Notes under the pieces: model-generated
What the model saw: only the letters and a program-made list of their open reading frames with translations
The model's database searches: none
Told to the model about the DNA's origin: nothing
In this document: piece after piece, positions 6,235-28,446 of the stretch
How positions within the stretch are numbered: position 1 is the stretch's first letter
How the letters are laid out: every line of letters starts with the position of its first letter
Assembly: GCA_021805545.1 (NCBI GenBank)
Contig: JAJZFB010000068.1
Location: forward strand, 1-64,000
DNA length: 64,000 bases
Direction of reading: 5' to 3'
Origin: Pseudomonadota bacterium
GTDB taxonomy: Bacteria > Pseudomonadota > Alphaproteobacteria > Acetobacterales > Acetobacteraceae
Program-made: the position numbers and the translations under genes

Positions 6235-6669
6235 ATGCGGATGTTTCTTGCCAATGATGACGCCACCGCCGCACTGGGGGCCAAGCTGGCCGCGCGGGCC
6301 AGGCCGGGCGATGTGCTGCTGCTGCAAGGCCCGCTGGGGGCGGGTAAATCCACCCTGGCACGGGCGTTTATCCGCGCGCTGGCGGGCGACCCGGGGCTGA
6401 CCGTGCCCAGCCCTACGTTTACGTTAGTGCAGGCCTATGAGACCCCGCGCGGCGAGGTCTGGCATTATGATTTGTGGCGGCTCGGCGGGCCGGAGGGGTT
6501 GACCGAGCTGGGCTGGGACGAGGCCGGGGACAAAATTACCCTGGTGGAGTGGCCAGAGCGGCTGGGGGGTTTGGCCCCGGCGGAAGCGCTGCGTGTAGGG
6601 CTCTCGCATGCCGGGGCGGGGCGTGAGATAGAGCTGCTAGGCGAAGAGAGGTGGCTGAATGGGCTTTGA
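6235..6669 (+). CDS. tsaE: tRNA threonylcarbamoyladenosine biosynthesis ATPase TsaE
   Basis: 144 residues. The Walker A motif GPLGAGKST lies near residue 35, then PSPTFTLVQAYE and the WHYDLWR motif typical of TsaE (YjeE). The protein works with TsaB and TsaD to make t6A37 in ANN-decoding tRNAs. A second ATG at 6241 is an equally possible start. The gene overlaps the following nucleotidyltransferase by 11 bp. In many alphaproteobacteria an AmgK-type sugar kinase lies between, or fused to, these two genes; it is absent here. Confidence 0.93.
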   Translation: MRMFLANDDATAALGAKLAARARPGDVLLLQGPLGAGKSTLARAFIRALAGDPGLTVPSPTFTLVQAYETPRGEVWHYDLWRLGGPEGLTELGWDEAGDKITLVEWPERLGGLAPAEALRVGLSHAGAGREIELLGEERWLNGL

Positions 6670-7384
6670 TACGGCTGTGATTTTAAGCGCGGGGCTGGGT
6701 ACACGCATGCGCCCTTTGACCGAGGCCACGCCCAAGCCGCTGCTGCCTTTGGGTGGGCGGCCAATATTGGCGCATACGCTGGACCGGCTGAAAGAGGCCG
6801 GGGTGAAGCGGATTATCGTGAATGCGCATTATCTGGCCGGGCAGATTGAGGCGTTTTTGCGCCCCTGCCCTAACGTAACCGTGACGCATGAGGGCGAGCT
6901 GCAGGATACGGGCGGCGCGATTACCGCCATGCGGGCCCAGGGATTGCTGCCGGATAAGCCGTTTTTTGTCGTGAACGGCGATACCTATTGGGTGGATGGG
7001 CCAACCCCTACCCTGCCCCGGCTGGAGCGGGCTTTTAACCCCGCCCATACCGATGTGGTGCTGCTGCTGGCGCGCGCCGCCGGGGCCGTGGCGGAAACCG
7101 GGCAAGGCGATTTTGTGTGGCCGCGCGATGAAGGGCTGCGGCGGCGGGGCGAGCGCGAAGTGGCGCCGCTGCTTTATGCCGGTGTGCAGCTTGTGGCGCC
7201 TGGTTTGTTCGAGAGTTCTCCCAAAGAGCCATTCAGCATGAATCTGCTTTGGGATAAGGCGCTAAAAGCCGGGCGGCTGGGGGCGATTATGCATGACGGG
7301 GTGTGGTTTCATCTTTCCACGCCGGAGGATTTGGCCCGGGCGCAGGCCACGCTGGATGCGCGGGCCGTGGGGAATACCACTTGA
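6659..7384 (+). CDS. Sugar-1-phosphate nucleotidyltransferase, MurU-like
   Basis: 241 residues. The signature LSAGLGTRMRPLT near the N-terminus and the KPLLPLGGRPI segment define the NTP-transferase family. NGDTYW is the metal-binding region. Size and synteny (tsaE–this gene–addB) match MurU, the N-acetylmuramate-1-phosphate uridylyltransferase of the AmgK/MurU peptidoglycan recycling route. The gene overlaps tsaE by 11 bp with GAGAGG upstream, and its stop overlaps the addB start. No AmgK kinase accompanies it, so a different sugar phosphate (for example mannose-1-P) remains possible. Confidence 0.82.
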   Translation: MGFDTAVILSAGLGTRMRPLTEATPKPLLPLGGRPILAHTLDRLKEAGVKRIIVNAHYLAGQIEAFLRPCPNVTVTHEGELQDTGGAITAMRAQGLLPDKPFFVVNGDTYWVDGPTPTLPRLERAFNPAHTDVVLLLARAAGAVAETGQGDFVWPRDEGLRRRGEREVAPLLYAGVQLVAPGLFESSPKEPFSMNLLWDKALKAGRLGAIMHDGVWFHLSTPEDLARAQATLDARAVGNTT

Positions 7385-10287
7385 AAATTGGCGCCTTCCC
7401 GCCGCGGGCGCCGTTTTTGCCGTCTTTGGCGCGGCTATGGCTTGCGGCGGCGGCGCCGTGTGGTGAAGGGCTGATTATTCTGCCCAGCCGCCGCGCGGCG
7501 CAGGCGCTGGCGGGGGCGTTTTTACAGGCGAATAAGGGCAAGGCGCTGCTGCTGCCGCGCATTATCGCGCTGGGGAATATAGACGAGGCGGGACTGCTGC
7601 TTTCCACCGGGTTCGCGCTGCCGCCCGCCATTGCGGGCACGCAAAGGCAGGCGCAACTGGCGCGGCTGATTCTGGCCATGAATGGCGCGGGCGGGGCGCC
7701 GCGCAGGCCGCATGCGGCCTGGGTGCTGGCGGCGGAGCTGGCCGGGCTGATGGATGAGGCGGATTATGCCGGGGTGGATTTGGCCGAGGCGCTGCCCAAG
7801 CTGGTGGAGGGCGAGCTGGCCCAGCACTGGCAGACCACGCTGACGTTTTTGAAGATTGTAACGCAAGCCTGGCCCGCATTTTTGCAGGCCCAGGGCATGG
7901 TTAACCCGGCGGCGCGGCTGGCGGCCCTGGTTAAGGCGCAGGCGCAGGCCTGGCGTGACGCCCCGCCCCGGCACCGTGTGTGGATGGTGGCGGCGGAAGG
8001 CACGCAGGCCGTGGCGGCCATGGCGCGGATTGTGGCGGGGCTGCCGGAAGGGATGCTGCTGCTGCCGGGCTATGATCCGGTTGTGAGCGATGAGGCCTGG
8101 GACGCGCTGGATGAGACGCATAACCAGGCCGGGATTGCCGCGCTGCTGGCGGATATGGGCGCGCGGCGCGTGGAGGTGAAACTGCTGGATTCGGCGGAGT
8201 CTGCCGTGCCTGAAGGGCGGGCGGCGCTGCTTTCTCGCGCATTGCTGCCTGCCGCCGCCTTGGGGGCGTGGCAGGACAAGGTGGCGCTGGATATTACGGG
8301 TGTGACCCGGCTGGAGACGCCGGATGAGGCGCAAAATGCGCTGGCCATTGCGATGATTCTGCGCGATGCGCTGGAGCAGCCCGGCAGCACGGCGGCTTTG
8401 ATTACGCCGGACCGGCAATTGGCGGCGCGCGTGGCGGCGGCGCTGAAGCGTTTTGGCATTACCGCCGATGACAGCGCCGGCGAGGAGCTGGCCGAGACGC
8501 CGCCCGCGGTGTTTTTGCGCCTGCTGGCGCGGGCGGCGGCCAGCGAATATGCGCCTCTACCGCTGCTTTCGTTATTGAAACACCCTTTGGCGGCGGGCGG
8601 GTTGCCGCCGGGGCGGTTCCGCGAGGCGGGGCGGCGGCTGGAGTTGCGCGCCCTGCGCGGGCCGCGGCCAGGGCCGGGGTTTGATGGCATAAAATTCCGG
8701 CTGCGCGAGGCGAAGCAGGACATGCGGGATTTTGTGGACAGGCTGGAATGGCTGCTGCGGCCTTTGCATTTGGCGCAGGCGGTGAATCCGGCGGCGGCGT
8801 TGCGGCTGCTGGCCGAGGCGGGCGAGGCGCTTGCCGCGACGGATGCGCTGGCGGGCGCGGAAGTGCTGTGGGCGGGCGAGGCGGGAATCGCGCTTTCCGA
8901 GCTGTTCCGCGAGATGTTTGTGGCGCTGGCGGATTTGCCTGATATGGCGCCAGGCGATGTGCCGGATTTGCTGGATGCGGTGCTGGCGGGCCAGGCGGTG
9001 CGCAAGCCGCGCGCGAAGGATGGGCATCCGCGCATTGCCATTTGGGGCATACAGGAAGCAGCATTGCAGAATGTGGATGTTGCCGTGCTGGGCGGGCTGG
9101 TGGAGGGCGTGTGGCCAGCACCCGCCGAGCCTGGGCCATGGCTCTCGCGCCCCATGCGCAAGCAGGCCGGGCTGGCGGCGCCCGAGCAGAAAATAGCGCA
9201 GGCCGCGCATGGGTTTTTTGCGCTGGGCTGTGCGTGCCGCGAGATTGTGCTGGCCGCCCCCGCGCGGCGCGAGCGCGCCCCCGCCGTGCCCGCGCGCTGG
9301 CTGACGCGGCTGGAGGCGCTGCTGGCCGGGGCGGAGATGAAATTACCGCTGCATGATGCGGCATTATGGGCCGCGCAGTTGGATGTGCCAGTGCGGCGCG
9401 AATGGCGCGGGCGGCCTTATCCGCGCCCACCCGCCACTGCGCGGCCGCGGCAGCTTTCCATTTCGGATTTCGGCACGCTGATAACCGACCCTTATGCGAT
9501 TTATGCCAAGCATGTATTGAAGGTTGAGGCACTGAGCGGGCTGGATGAGGAAAGCGATGCCAGCCTGTTTGGCGAGATTGTGCATGCAGGGCTGGCGGCG
9601 TTTTTTGGCGCCGGCAAGGATGAGGTGATACGGCCCGGTGCCGTGGAATTGCTGACGGTGAAGCTGCAAACGGCGATGCGGGAGAAACGCCCGCGCGCGG
9701 CGCTGGAGCATTGGTGGGCGGCACGGCTGGCGCGTATTGCGCAATGGGTGGTGGCGCTGGAGCGCGCGCGGCGTGAGGCATTTGGAACACCCCAGGCGCT
9801 GGCGCATGAATTGGCCGGTACGCTGCCGCTGCCCGGCGGGTTTGCGCTGACCGGGCGCGCCGACCGGATTGAGCGTGGCGCGGATGGAAATGTTGCGCTG
9901 ATTGACTACAAAACCGGAACAATACCCGCCGCCGCCGCCGTAGAGGCGGGCACGGCGCCGCAATTACCGCTGGAAGCGGTGATGGCGGAGGCTGGTGTAT
10001 TTGGCGCGGATTTTCACGCCAGCGTGACGGAGCTGGCTTATGTTAAGCTCTCGGGCCGCGCGGAAGCGGGCGAGGAAATGCGGTTGTTTAAGCGCAAGCC
10101 TGAGACGTTGCGCGCCGCCGTGGCGCAGGCAGGTGCTGCGCTGCAGGATTTGTTTGATAAATTCGCCGATGAGAGCGTGGCTTACCTGGCCATGCCGCAT
10201 CCGGGCCGGGTGAATTCTTATGATGCCTATGGCGGGATTTCACGCCGGGCGGAATGGGCCGGGGAGGATGAAAATGACGGCGATTGA
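7381..10287 (+). CDS. addB: Double-strand break repair protein AddB
   Basis: About 968 residues if translation begins at TTG 7381, which overlaps the upstream stop as TTGA and suits coupled translation. Further in-frame sequence to 7303 lies inside the previous gene. The N-terminal region (LIILPSRRAAQAL) is the degenerate helicase-like start of alphaproteobacterial AddB. The C-terminus has a PD-(D/E)xK nuclease core: GRADRIE near residue 825 and LIDYKTG near 841. With AddA it forms the helicase-nuclease that resects double-strand ends and loads RecA. The start codon is inferred; the identity is firm from sequence and from addA following directly. Confidence 0.92.
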   Translation: MKIGAFPPRAPFLPSLARLWLAAAAPCGEGLIILPSRRAAQALAGAFLQANKGKALLLPRIIALGNIDEAGLLLSTGFALPPAIAGTQRQAQLARLILAMNGAGGAPRRPHAAWVLAAELAGLMDEADYAGVDLAEALPKLVEGELAQHWQTTLTFLKIVTQAWPAFLQAQGMVNPAARLAALVKAQAQAWRDAPPRHRVWMVAAEGTQAVAAMARIVAGLPEGMLLLPGYDPVVSDEAWDALDETHNQAGIAALLADMGARRVEVKLLDSAESAVPEGRAALLSRALLPAAALGAWQDKVALDITGVTRLETPDEAQNALAIAMILRDALEQPGSTAALITPDRQLAARVAAALKRFGITADDSAGEELAETPPAVFLRLLARAAASEYAPLPLLSLLKHPLAAGGLPPGRFREAGRRLELRALRGPRPGPGFDGIKFRLREAKQDMRDFVDRLEWLLRPLHLAQAVNPAAALRLLAEAGEALAATDALAGAEVLWAGEAGIALSELFREMFVALADLPDMAPGDVPDLLDAVLAGQAVRKPRAKDGHPRIAIWGIQEAALQNVDVAVLGGLVEGVWPAPAEPGPWLSRPMRKQAGLAAPEQKIAQAAHGFFALGCACREIVLAAPARRERAPAVPARWLTRLEALLAGAEMKLPLHDAALWAAQLDVPVRREWRGRPYPRPPATARPRQLSISDFGTLITDPYAIYAKHVLKVEALSGLDEESDASLFGEIVHAGLAAFFGAGKDEVIRPGAVELLTVKLQTAMREKRPRAALEHWWAARLARIAQWVVALERARREAFGTPQALAHELAGTLPLPGGFALTGRADRIERGADGNVALIDYKTGTIPAAAAVEAGTAPQLPLEAVMAEAGVFGADFHASVTELAYVKLSGRAEAGEEMRLFKRKPETLRAAVAQAGAALQDLFDKFADESVAYLAMPHPGRVNSYDAYGGISRRAEWAGEDENDGD

Positions 10288-25637: not shown

Positions 25638-25740
25638 TAGAGCAATATCCGATCAGCTTGAATCGAAGATTTAAGCTGATCGGATGAAATTGCTCGCCCA
25701 AGCAAATTTAGCGCGTTTCCGATTGATCGGAAAATGCTCC
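25638..25740. repeat. AGAGC-type palindromic element
   Basis: TAGAGCAATATCCGATCAGCTT begins at 25638 and pairs with AAGCTGATCGGATGAAATTGCTC, ending at 25695. A second small palindrome, TTTCCGATTGATCGGAAA, follows near 25716–25733 and leads to GCTCC. The nested form and TAGAGC edge match the element at 16540. Confidence 0.65.
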
Positions 25741-25869: not shown

Positions 25870-27870
25870 ATGATCATCGCCGCGCCGCGCCTGTTTCTGG
25901 GCGAGGCATTTTCTGGCCCGGGCGCTGTTGCTGTGGAAAATGGGCGGATTACGGCGGTGCTGCCGGGCGAAACGCGCGGCGATATTGTGCTGCGCCACGG
26001 TTTTATTGGCCCGGGGCTGGTGGATTTGCACAATAACGGCGCCTTCGGGGTGGATTGCGCCACGGCCAGCGCGGCGGAATGGGATGTATTCATTGCCAGC
26101 CTTACCGCGCGGGGGGTTACCGCGGTGCTGCCCACCATCATTACCGCGCCTTTGCCCGCTTTGCGCGGGGCGGCGCAAGGTGTGGCCGCCGCCATGGCGC
26201 GGCACGCCGCCATTCTGGGCTTGCATGTGGAAGGCCCGTTTCTGGCGCCGGAAAAACGCGGCGCGCACCCGCGCCAGTTTCTGCGCCTGCCCGATGATGC
26301 GGCGCTGGACGAAATACTGGCCCTGCCCGGCCTGCGCGTTATTACCCTGGCGCCAGAACTGCCCGGCGCCCTGCCCGCCATTGCCCGGCTGCTTGCGGCG
26401 GGCGTGCTGGTCTCGCTGGGCCATACAGGGGCCGATGCCGCCGCCATGCGCGCCGCCGCCAGCGCCGGGGCCAGCCTGGTTACCCATGTGTTCAACGCGC
26501 AATCCCCGCTCTCGCACCGCGCCCCGGGCGCGCCGGGCGTGGCGCTTACCGATTCGCGGCTTCACCCGTGCCTGATCGCCGATGGCGTGCATACCGACCC
26601 GGCGATTCTGGCCCTGAGCTTCGCCGCCTGCCCGCGGGCCATCGCGGTGTCGGACTCCATCCTCATCGCCGGGCTGGCACCGGGCGAAACCCGGCCCTTT
26701 GGCGGCGCGCCCGCCACGCTGGGGCCGCAAGGCGTGGGGCTGCGGCCCGATGGCACCATCGCCGGGGCGGGCATTATTCTGGATGAAGGCGTGCGCCGCC
26801 TGGTGGCCGCCGGGGTAGCGCCAGACATTGCCCTGGCCGCCGCCACATCGCGCCCCGCCGATGCGCTGGGCCTGGCGGATAGGGGCCGCCTTACCCCCGG
26901 CGCGCGGGCGGACCTTGTATGGTGGAGCGATGATTTGCACCCGCAACAGGTTTGGATAGGCGGCAACAGCGCCACCCCGCCCCCCAGGCCGCGCGGCACC
27001 GAGGCCGCGCGGGACGAGCTGGCCGGTTTGGATGAGCGTCCCATGCTGGCCATCGTGCAGAGCTTTCTGGCCCAGGAGCAGGCGGCACAGCGCGCCTTGG
27101 CCAACGCCGCCCCCGCCTTGGCCCGGCTGGCCGAGGCCGTGGCGGCAAAAATGCAGGCGGGCGGGCGGTTATTCTATGCCGGGGCTGGCACATCCGGCCG
27201 GCTGGGGCTGCTGGATGCGGTGGAATGCGGCCCCACTTTTGGCGTGGAGGATGGGGTCATCATCCCGCTGCTGGCCGGGGGGCAAAGCGCCTTCATCAAG
27301 GCCGCCGAGGGCGCGGAGGACGACGAAGACGCCGCCCGCGCCGCGCTGGCCGCGCACGGGTTTGGCCCCGCCGATGCGCTGGTGGGCATAGCCGCCTCGG
27401 GCACCACGCCCTTTACCCTGGCCGCCTTACGCGCGGCGCGGGCAGCGGGCGGGCTTACAGGTGCCATCGTCAACAACCAAGGCACGCCCATGGCCGATGC
27501 CGCCGGTATTGCCGTGGAGCTGCTCACGGGCGCCGAGATCATTGCCGGGTCCACCCGCCTGTCCGCGGGGTCGGCGCAGAAAATCGCGCTCAACATCCTG
27601 TCTTCCAGCGTGATGATAAAGCTGGGTAAAACCTATGGGCCGTACATGGTGGATATGCGCGCCACCAACGCCAAGCTGCGCCGCCGCGCCCTGCGCATGC
27701 TAACCGCCATTACCGGCGCGAATGAGGATAAAGCCGCCCTTGCGCTTGCCGCGTGCAATATGCATGTTAAAACCGCGGCCCTTATGCTGCTGCATAATGT
27801 TTCTGCCCAAGCTGCGGCGCGGAAACTGGCGGCGGCTGCGGGGTCGCTGCGCCAAGCCCTTAAGGAATAG
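25870..27870 (+). CDS. NagA–MurQ fusion: GlcNAc-6-P deacetylase / MurNAc-6-P etherase
   Basis: 666 residues in one frame. Residues 1–370 are an N-acetylglucosamine-6-phosphate deacetylase: GLHVEGPF near 117 (metal Glu), LGHTGAD near 183 and THVFNAQ near 206 (His ligands), and AVSDS near 260 (catalytic Asp). Residues 378–666 are a complete N-acetylmuramic acid 6-phosphate etherase with AGAGTSGRLG near 438, DAVECGPTFG near 449 and EGAEDDED near 480, which hold its two catalytic glutamates. In cell-wall recycling MurQ makes GlcNAc-6-P plus lactate and NagA deacetylates GlcNAc-6-P, so the fusion joins consecutive steps. Start: ATG 25870. The only gap between the domains is a proline-rich linker (PPPRPRG). 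Confidence 0.9.
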   Translation: MIIAAPRLFLGEAFSGPGAVAVENGRITAVLPGETRGDIVLRHGFIGPGLVDLHNNGAFGVDCATASAAEWDVFIASLTARGVTAVLPTIITAPLPALRGAAQGVAAAMARHAAILGLHVEGPFLAPEKRGAHPRQFLRLPDDAALDEILALPGLRVITLAPELPGALPAIARLLAAGVLVSLGHTGADAAAMRAAASAGASLVTHVFNAQSPLSHRAPGAPGVALTDSRLHPCLIADGVHTDPAILALSFAACPRAIAVSDSILIAGLAPGETRPFGGAPATLGPQGVGLRPDGTIAGAGIILDEGVRRLVAAGVAPDIALAAATSRPADALGLADRGRLTPGARADLVWWSDDLHPQQVWIGGNSATPPPRPRGTEAARDELAGLDERPMLAIVQSFLAQEQAAQRALANAAPALARLAEAVAAKMQAGGRLFYAGAGTSGRLGLLDAVECGPTFGVEDGVIIPLLAGGQSAFIKAAEGAEDDEDAARAALAAHGFGPADALVGIAASGTTPFTLAALRAARAAGGLTGAIVNNQGTPMADAAGIAVELLTGAEIIAGSTRLSAGSAQKIALNILSSSVMIKLGKTYGPYMVDMRATNAKLRRRALRMLTAITGANEDKAALALAACNMHVKTAALMLLHNVSAQAAARKLAAAAGSLRQALKE

Positions 27871-27918: not shown

Positions 27919-28446
27919 GTGGCCGGCAGGCCGGGCAAATTTTTAGGCGCCGCGCGCAGGCTGGATGATTTCATCATCGACCGGCTGCTGCAGCCTGGCA
28001 TAAACGTGGCGGAGTGGCATTTAGGCCTGAACCCGCACAAGCTGGCGCGGCTATGCGCCATGCTCGGCGGCGCCGTGGGGCTGCTCTGGGTCCATGCGTT
28101 CGACCCGCCCTTCTCGGCCGATTTCTGGCAGGATTTGCTCTGCCTGCTCATCATGACCGGCGCGGCCTGGATGCAAATCCGCACCACTGAGGCCACGCAC
28201 CCGCGCCGCCCCGCGCTCGCCCCCGCCGTGCGGCTCACCGGCCTGTTCTGGCGCACCCTCTGGCTGGCCGATTTGGCGCTGCTGCCCGCGCAAAGCCCCG
28301 TGGAGTCCTGGGCTGAGCTGCTGGGCAATGTGCTGTGGACCGCGCTGCTGGTGCTGCCCTACTGGATCATCTGCTGCCATACCGCGCCCCCGCCGGAGCG
28401 CCGCATGGCGGGCGCGTTCCGCTACGCCACCATCCCGGTGCGGTAG
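27919..28446 (+). CDS. Hypothetical membrane protein
   Basis: 175 residues; I do not recognise the family. Start GTG 27919 has AGGAG 6 nt upstream, which strongly supports it. The N-terminal third is amphipathic and basic. Hydrophobic stretches lie near residues 45–60 (LCAMLGGAVGLLWV), 72–86 (LLCLLIMTGAAW), 105–122 and 133–150 (VLWTALLVLPYWIICC), suggesting three or four membrane helices. A CC pair is in the last helix. It follows the NagA–MurQ gene by 48 bp on the same strand and may be co-transcribed. It converges on malate synthase. Confidence 0.72.
   Translation: MAGRPGKFLGAARRLDDFIIDRLLQPGINVAEWHLGLNPHKLARLCAMLGGAVGLLWVHAFDPPFSADFWQDLLCLLIMTGAAWMQIRTTEATHPRRPALAPAVRLTGLFWRTLWLADLALLPAQSPVESWAELLGNVLWTALLVLPYWIICCHTAPPPERRMAGAFRYATIPVR

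Follow-up and report, generated by a model that had tools for sequence, protein, structure and literature searches.

Why should two consecutive enzymes of cell-wall sugar recycling, the N-acetylglucosamine-6-phosphate deacetylase NagA and the MurNAc-6-phosphate etherase MurQ, be carried on a single polypeptide? The question is raised by a 666-codon frame within a 64,000-nucleotide stretch of an Acetobacteraceae genome, the whole of which is called the window here. We conclude that the frame encodes a genuine NagA-MurQ fusion that is old in this group. It very probably acts as a bifunctional enzyme of E. coli-type cell-wall sugar (MurNAc) recycling that carries out both steps. Both catalytic activities, the fusion event and the metabolic role are what we infer from comparison with relatives. 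The component enzymes and the pathway are well known. A literature search, mostly of papers outside subscription, found no description of a NagA-MurQ fusion in titles and abstract openings.

The fused frame and its two halves

The frame contains no internal stop codon (Table 1). Pfam assigned residues 46-366 to Amidohydro_1 (E 2.6e-19) and the region from residue 406 onwards to SIS-type domains. The NCBIfam nagA model TIGR00221 matched residues 18-357 (E 6.7e-60), below its equivalog cut-off; the scores for two further equivalog models, PRK11170 (nagA) and TIGR00274 (MurQ), are likewise below theirs and are given further on. Two MurQ subfamily models were matched above their cut-offs: PRK05441 at residues 377-665 (341.6 bits against 168) and PRK12570 (291.1 against 255). 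An AlphaFold2 model built from 70 window and locus sequences reached a mean pLDDT of 95.5 and a pTM of 0.78. Model residues 1 to ∼371 fit 14 structures annotated as NagA or as human AMDHD2 (Z 47.3-51.7, rmsd 1.6-2.1), and residues ∼373-666 fit solved MurQ structures with Z up to 38.3. For example, all 293 of the 293 residues of H. influenzae MurQ (4lzj) were covered by model residues 374-666 (Z 38.2, rmsd 1.4). In the predicted structure, both domains are thus complete, with ∼11 residues between them.

Table 1. Features of the fusion locus, in window coordinates
Feature	Coordinates	Strand	Remarks
nagA-murQ fusion gene	25870..27870	+	666 aa; ATG start; genus-conserved
NagA half, residues 1-365	25870..26964	+	key residues E121, H133, H185, H206, R217, H241, D262
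Linker, residues 366-376	26965..26997	+	variable among relatives
MurQ half, residues 377-666, SIS fold	26998..27867	+	glutamates E452, E483
175-aa protein, no Pfam/NCBIfam match	27919..28446	+	follows the fusion closely in many Acidocella loci

The key residues of both halves are strictly kept. Every NagA residue listed in Table 1, and both MurQ glutamates, are present in all 41 distinct fusions, the window included. NagA position 54 is the exception, with H in 38 of the 41 and Q in 3. We take the E. coli counterparts of the NagA metal ligands and catalytic aspartate to be E131, H195, H216 and D273, and those of the catalytic MurQ glutamates to be E83 and E114. In alignment, D262 falls on the residue mutated in the D273N structure of the E. 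coli enzyme (2p53), and E452 and E483 align with glutamates of solved MurQ. In eight chosen comparisons against the window, dN/dS was 0.18-0.36 for the NagA half and 0.17-0.33 for the MurQ half. Both halves are therefore under purifying selection of similar strength.

The linker, bounded by G365 and T377, is 11 residues long in the window and 10-19 across the 41 fusions. The first-pass annotation had described one 666-residue frame holding a complete NagA followed by a complete MurQ, with catalytic residues in both halves and a short, proline-rich linker between them. The frame and its two complete enzymes are borne out by conservation in the genus, key residues, purifying selection and predicted structure, and the catalytic residues by their presence in all 41 fusions. 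As to the linker, its shortness holds and prolines do occur in it, but its sequence is variable and fast-changing among the 41.

The surroundings of the gene offer two further observations. The 175-aa protein encoded downstream is a possible operon partner of the fusion; no match to it was found in the Acidiphilium loci examined. Upstream, an inverted repeat was noted by eye at window positions ∼25648-25690. A 23-base part of this repeat occurs once in the window; when the pattern was loosened, all matching loci came from this same place.

Conservation, probable origin and apparent later loss

The fusion was matched in 35 of 38 genomes of the window's genus, probably Acidocella, and a stop-free frame runs over the junction in all 35. 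Matches cover at least residues 3-637 in 29 of them; the other six are cut or in pieces, which we read as contig ends. All 23 genus genomes that are ≥90% complete and ≤5% contaminated have the open junction; completeness is 81-85% in the three genomes that gave no match. Relatives were also scanned locus by locus with two peptide patterns, and the best 80 of 199 were kept. Among the 44 best named loci (L042-L085), NagA, at least in part, is joined to MurQ by a stop-free frame in 43, including those of the named isolates A. aromatica, A. aquatica, A. aminolytica and A. facilis. One of the 43 (L075) has a NagA half broken further upstream and an open junction; the remaining locus (L083) holds MurQ only and begins at contig base 1. 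None of the next 36 loci (L086-L121) is fused: 31 hold MurQ only and five hold both in separate frames or places.

The fusion does not appear to be widespread. Among the matches listed for 150 family genomes, four carry an intact fusion and one, the metagenome-assembled genome (MAG) G023, a broken one. In a set of 299 order genomes, for which those lacking a match were listed in part, the fusion occurs in the 16 genomes listed for genus g1 and, within the Acidiphilium group (g96), in six of seven listed. Only the window's own match spans both halves among those listed for 398 phylum genomes. Outside the Acidocella/Acidiphilium group and the broken G023, these family, order and phylum sets, which are samples of larger groups with only the stronger matches listed, gave no stop-free match to both halves. 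A few NagA matches in family genomes, such as G107 and G119, pass the junction through stop codons, and we read these as over-extension. Among plasmids, two records had one place covering ≥80% of the query (Chelatococcus and Mycoplasmopsis), and both were rejected as annotated separate genes. Both scan patterns derive from MurQ and only 80 of 199 relatives were kept, which could have left independent fusions with other types of MurQ undetected; such fusions may exist elsewhere.

Where did the fusion come from? Trees of each half were built from a fixed list of 17 of the 41 distinct fusions, with midpoint roots for drawing only. Matches below ∼300 (NagA) or ∼240 (MurQ) query residues were excluded, as were L063 from the NagA tree and L008, L074, L077 and L080 from the MurQ tree. 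In the MurQ tree, the 17 fusion halves form one clade with G023 and A. iwatense (99/99), and the sister of this clade is the unfused murQ of G006 (87/80). The G006 nagA and murQ genes lie in different frames with an overlap of 8 nt, given the murQ start that we chose, and an anmK-like gene comes next. A tandem overlapping nagA-murQ pair of this kind most likely gave rise to the fusion by a single loss of its gene boundary, in the ancestor shared by Acidocella and Acidiphilium.

The fusion label does not map onto either tree as a single change. It needs three changes on the MurQ tree; the starred branches force at least two, and none of 200 bootstrap trees has one. This count arises because G023 and A. 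iwatense, neither with an intact fusion, sit inside the clade. Two changes are needed on the NagA tree, because the NagA sequences of G006, G026, G058 and G134 fall among the fusions, a placement with weak support (84/67); 12% of bootstrap trees need only one. The simplest history, as we interpret it, is a single fusion event after which A. iwatense lost its NagA half and that of G023 was damaged.

A. iwatense seems to have lost its NagA half later. Its MurQ groups inside the Acidiphilium fusions (95/81 and 100/86), and a search of the locus for remnants of NagA detected none. There, 96 bases separate the stop of the upstream gene, which we read as HIT-like, from the MurQ start at 7998, and another in-frame ATG lies at 7920. 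A divergent NagA, with 41% identity to the window's NagA half, is encoded elsewhere in the genome. With MurQ lacking NagA at its site in this species and the NagA half broken in G023, the fused state is not essential to all species. As a separate observation, a Mycobacterium MurQ (L114, 8001-8840; 53% identity) groups with the Acidocella/G006 branch of the tree rather than with other actinobacterial MurQs, possibly by horizontal transfer.

Proposed metabolic role and possible reasons for fusion

The proposed role begins with AnmK, which would supply MurNAc-6-phosphate. The C-terminal MurQ half is predicted to convert this into D-lactate and GlcNAc-6-phosphate, and the N-terminal NagA half to deacetylate the latter to glucosamine-6-phosphate, which could go back into UDP-GlcNAc synthesis. 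The window's own genome encodes AnmK (471 bits against a cut-off of 352), as do 32 of the 38 genus genomes by match. The GH3 family, to which NagZ belongs, was matched in 36 of 38; the own copy that was scored reaches 200.4, short of the 207 set by the NCBIfam beta-N-acetylhexosaminidase model. A genome search detected no AmgK in the own genome, and AmgK matches occur in three of the 38 genus genomes, all divergent (33-39% identity). With AnmK present and AmgK not found, MurNAc-6-phosphate most likely goes to the fusion. The whole-fusion query hit one place in the own genome, with all 13 candidates scored; no second NagA or MurQ was found there, and full-length MurQ occurs in one place. The NagA half must therefore presumably also take GlcNAc-6-phosphate from other sources.

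This division of routes extends to the family. Across 150 family genomes, MurQ and AmgK are nearly mutually exclusive: 65 have MurQ only, 58 AmgK only, one both and 26 neither. The counts come from lists transcribed by eye, with the MurQ list reaching down to ∼6e-30 so that fragments may be missing and a weak AmgK match in G070 (6.2e-7) left out, and the Fisher value ignores relatedness. The same exclusivity is already reported for beta- and gammaproteobacteria (PMC5371407).

Other candidate steps in the own genome were examined. Neither of two weak SIS matches is read as NagB-II: one lies in GlmS and the other in a gene that we take to be KdsD-like, adjoining one that we take to be KdsA-like. 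No certain GlcNAc kinase was found in the own genome. A ROK kinase there matches best as a fructokinase, below that cut-off, and a BadF-type GlcNAc kinase was dismissed as a weak, below-cut-off match inside this ROK kinase.

The window also holds a MurU homolog, an orphan in a genome without detectable AmgK. At 6235-7384 a TsaE gene overlaps this homolog; addB and addA come next, and no amgK intervenes. The homolog scores 183.7 bits, below the MurU cut-off of 370. Among 30 loci compared, the tsaE-murU gap is ∼1.0-1.3 kb in 17, which leaves room for amgK, ≤132 bases in 10 (the window included) and 534 bases in one; in the remaining two TsaE was not found. The own genome (G000) further carries a second nagZ-region copy on contig C38 and a partial second MurU homolog on C57 (61% identity). 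These copies suggest either slight assembly contamination by a relative or paralogs.

If the enzyme is bifunctional, does fusion serve to channel GlcNAc-6-phosphate between the active sites, a possibility that the first-pass annotation raised, or to hold down a harmful level of it? The two reactions are consecutive, and the fused state has been kept in 35 of 38 Acidocella genomes and six of seven listed Acidiphilium-group genomes. Work on Caulobacter failed to yield a strain deleted for both nagA genes, and its authors propose that a build-up of GlcNAc-6-phosphate may be toxic (PMC13046382). Toxicity of the kind suggested there would favour tight coupling of MurQ and NagA. Nonetheless, the linker is short, variable and fast-changing, A. 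iwatense keeps a MurQ without a NagA half at its site and a divergent NagA elsewhere, and NagA presumably also serves GlcNAc-6-phosphate from other sources. The order of the domains argues the same way: NagA comes first in the chain, the reverse of the reaction order, and mirrors gene order. The nearest unfused relative has its genes in this nagA-murQ order, so a simple joining of the two genes is enough to account for the layout, with no need for channelling.

Either purpose of the fusion is unlikely. The specific proposal that the Acidocella-Acidiphilium lineage exchanged two separate recycling enzymes for a bifunctional one whose joined active sites hand over GlcNAc-6-phosphate, and so stop a harmful build-up, is likewise unlikely; if true, it would provide a natural channelling module in peptidoglycan recycling. 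With an order that follows the genes, an unconserved linker and one apparently unfused species, equal dosage or a neutral fusion is sufficient. Equal dosage and prompt removal of GlcNAc-6-phosphate would be the simplest benefits.

It is improbable that one half has ceased to work as NagA or MurQ and has taken on another substrate or a regulatory role. Such a reading draws on the annotation thresholds, which are not biochemical features: the window scores below the equivalog cut-offs of TIGR00221 (203 bits against 225.65), PRK11170, the E. coli-type nagA model (143.6 against 483), and the MurQ model TIGR00274 (288.7 against 302). SIS-fold relatives also include the glucokinase regulatory protein, which has a Pfam match on the fusion; this protein regulates and does not catalyse. 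However, two orthologous fusions exceed the TIGR00221 cut-off (226.5 and 253.3), and these same two fall below TIGR00274 (296.7 and 252.9) and PRK11170. The PRK11170 cut-off was missed by all five NagA scored, and the matched stretch of the unfused G006 NagA is also below TIGR00221 (216.6). Unfused MurQ stretches straddle TIGR00274, with G006 above (315.7) and G020 (253.8) and A. iwatense (278.6) below. Universal key residues (bar position 54), similar selection on both halves and the lack of any other NagA or MurQ found in the own genome likewise speak against an inactive half.

That the single frame yields two proteins, through linker cleavage or an internal start, is highly improbable. The linker is variable, and A. 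iwatense indicates that a MurQ starting near the linker position can be maintained. Yet the window has no methionine codon between residues 193 and 392, the latter already inside MurQ, and model confidence stays fairly high through the linker (mean pLDDT 88 at residues 361-370 and 80 at 371-380). Finally, a sequencing or assembly error that joined two genes, the frameshift against which the first-pass annotation had cautioned, has next to no probability: G023 shows that frame errors or real breaks in this gene happen in some MAGs, but the open junction in each of the 35 matching genomes among 38, independent of one another, and the named isolates among the fused loci rule it out.

Significance and comparison with known systems

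An annotation limited to a single name would presumably call the protein NagA or MurQ and miss half of it. The fusion marks the MurNAc route predicted for this acidophile lineage. The choice of route matters for fosfomycin sensitivity: intrinsic fosfomycin resistance has been reported for bacteria that use the AmgK-MurU route (PMC5371407). Why enzymes of successive recycling steps become joined can also be tested here on natural material: a single family includes an overlapping but unfused gene pair, many fusions and an apparent secondary loss of one half, which allows direct comparison of fused and unfused forms.

The AmgK-MurU route of Pseudomonas and Caulobacter also starts from MurNAc-6-phosphate made by AnmK, and a MurU homolog lies in the window at 6659-7384. 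That route, however, needs AmgK, and none was detected in the own genome. The separate NagA and MurQ of the E. coli type share with the fusion the consecutive reactions (by homology), the folds and the key residues. There, two genes encode two proteins, whereas here one chain carries both and no second copy was found in the own genome.

Fusion of the MurQ N-terminus to another enzyme domain is shared with the BadF-type kinase-MurQ protein of G026 (L012, 3-1529, minus strand). In contrast to the window, MurQ is joined there to a BcrAD/BadFG-family kinase, and a separate nagA gene lies immediately upstream. The G026 MurQ resembles that of G006 by eye and is not among the tree sequences. The nagA-murQ pair of the Acetobacteraceae-type genome G006 supplies the closest unfused MurQ in the tree and has the same gene order with an anmK-like gene next. 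Unlike the single chain of the window, this pair remains two unfused genes in different frames, overlapping by 8 nt.
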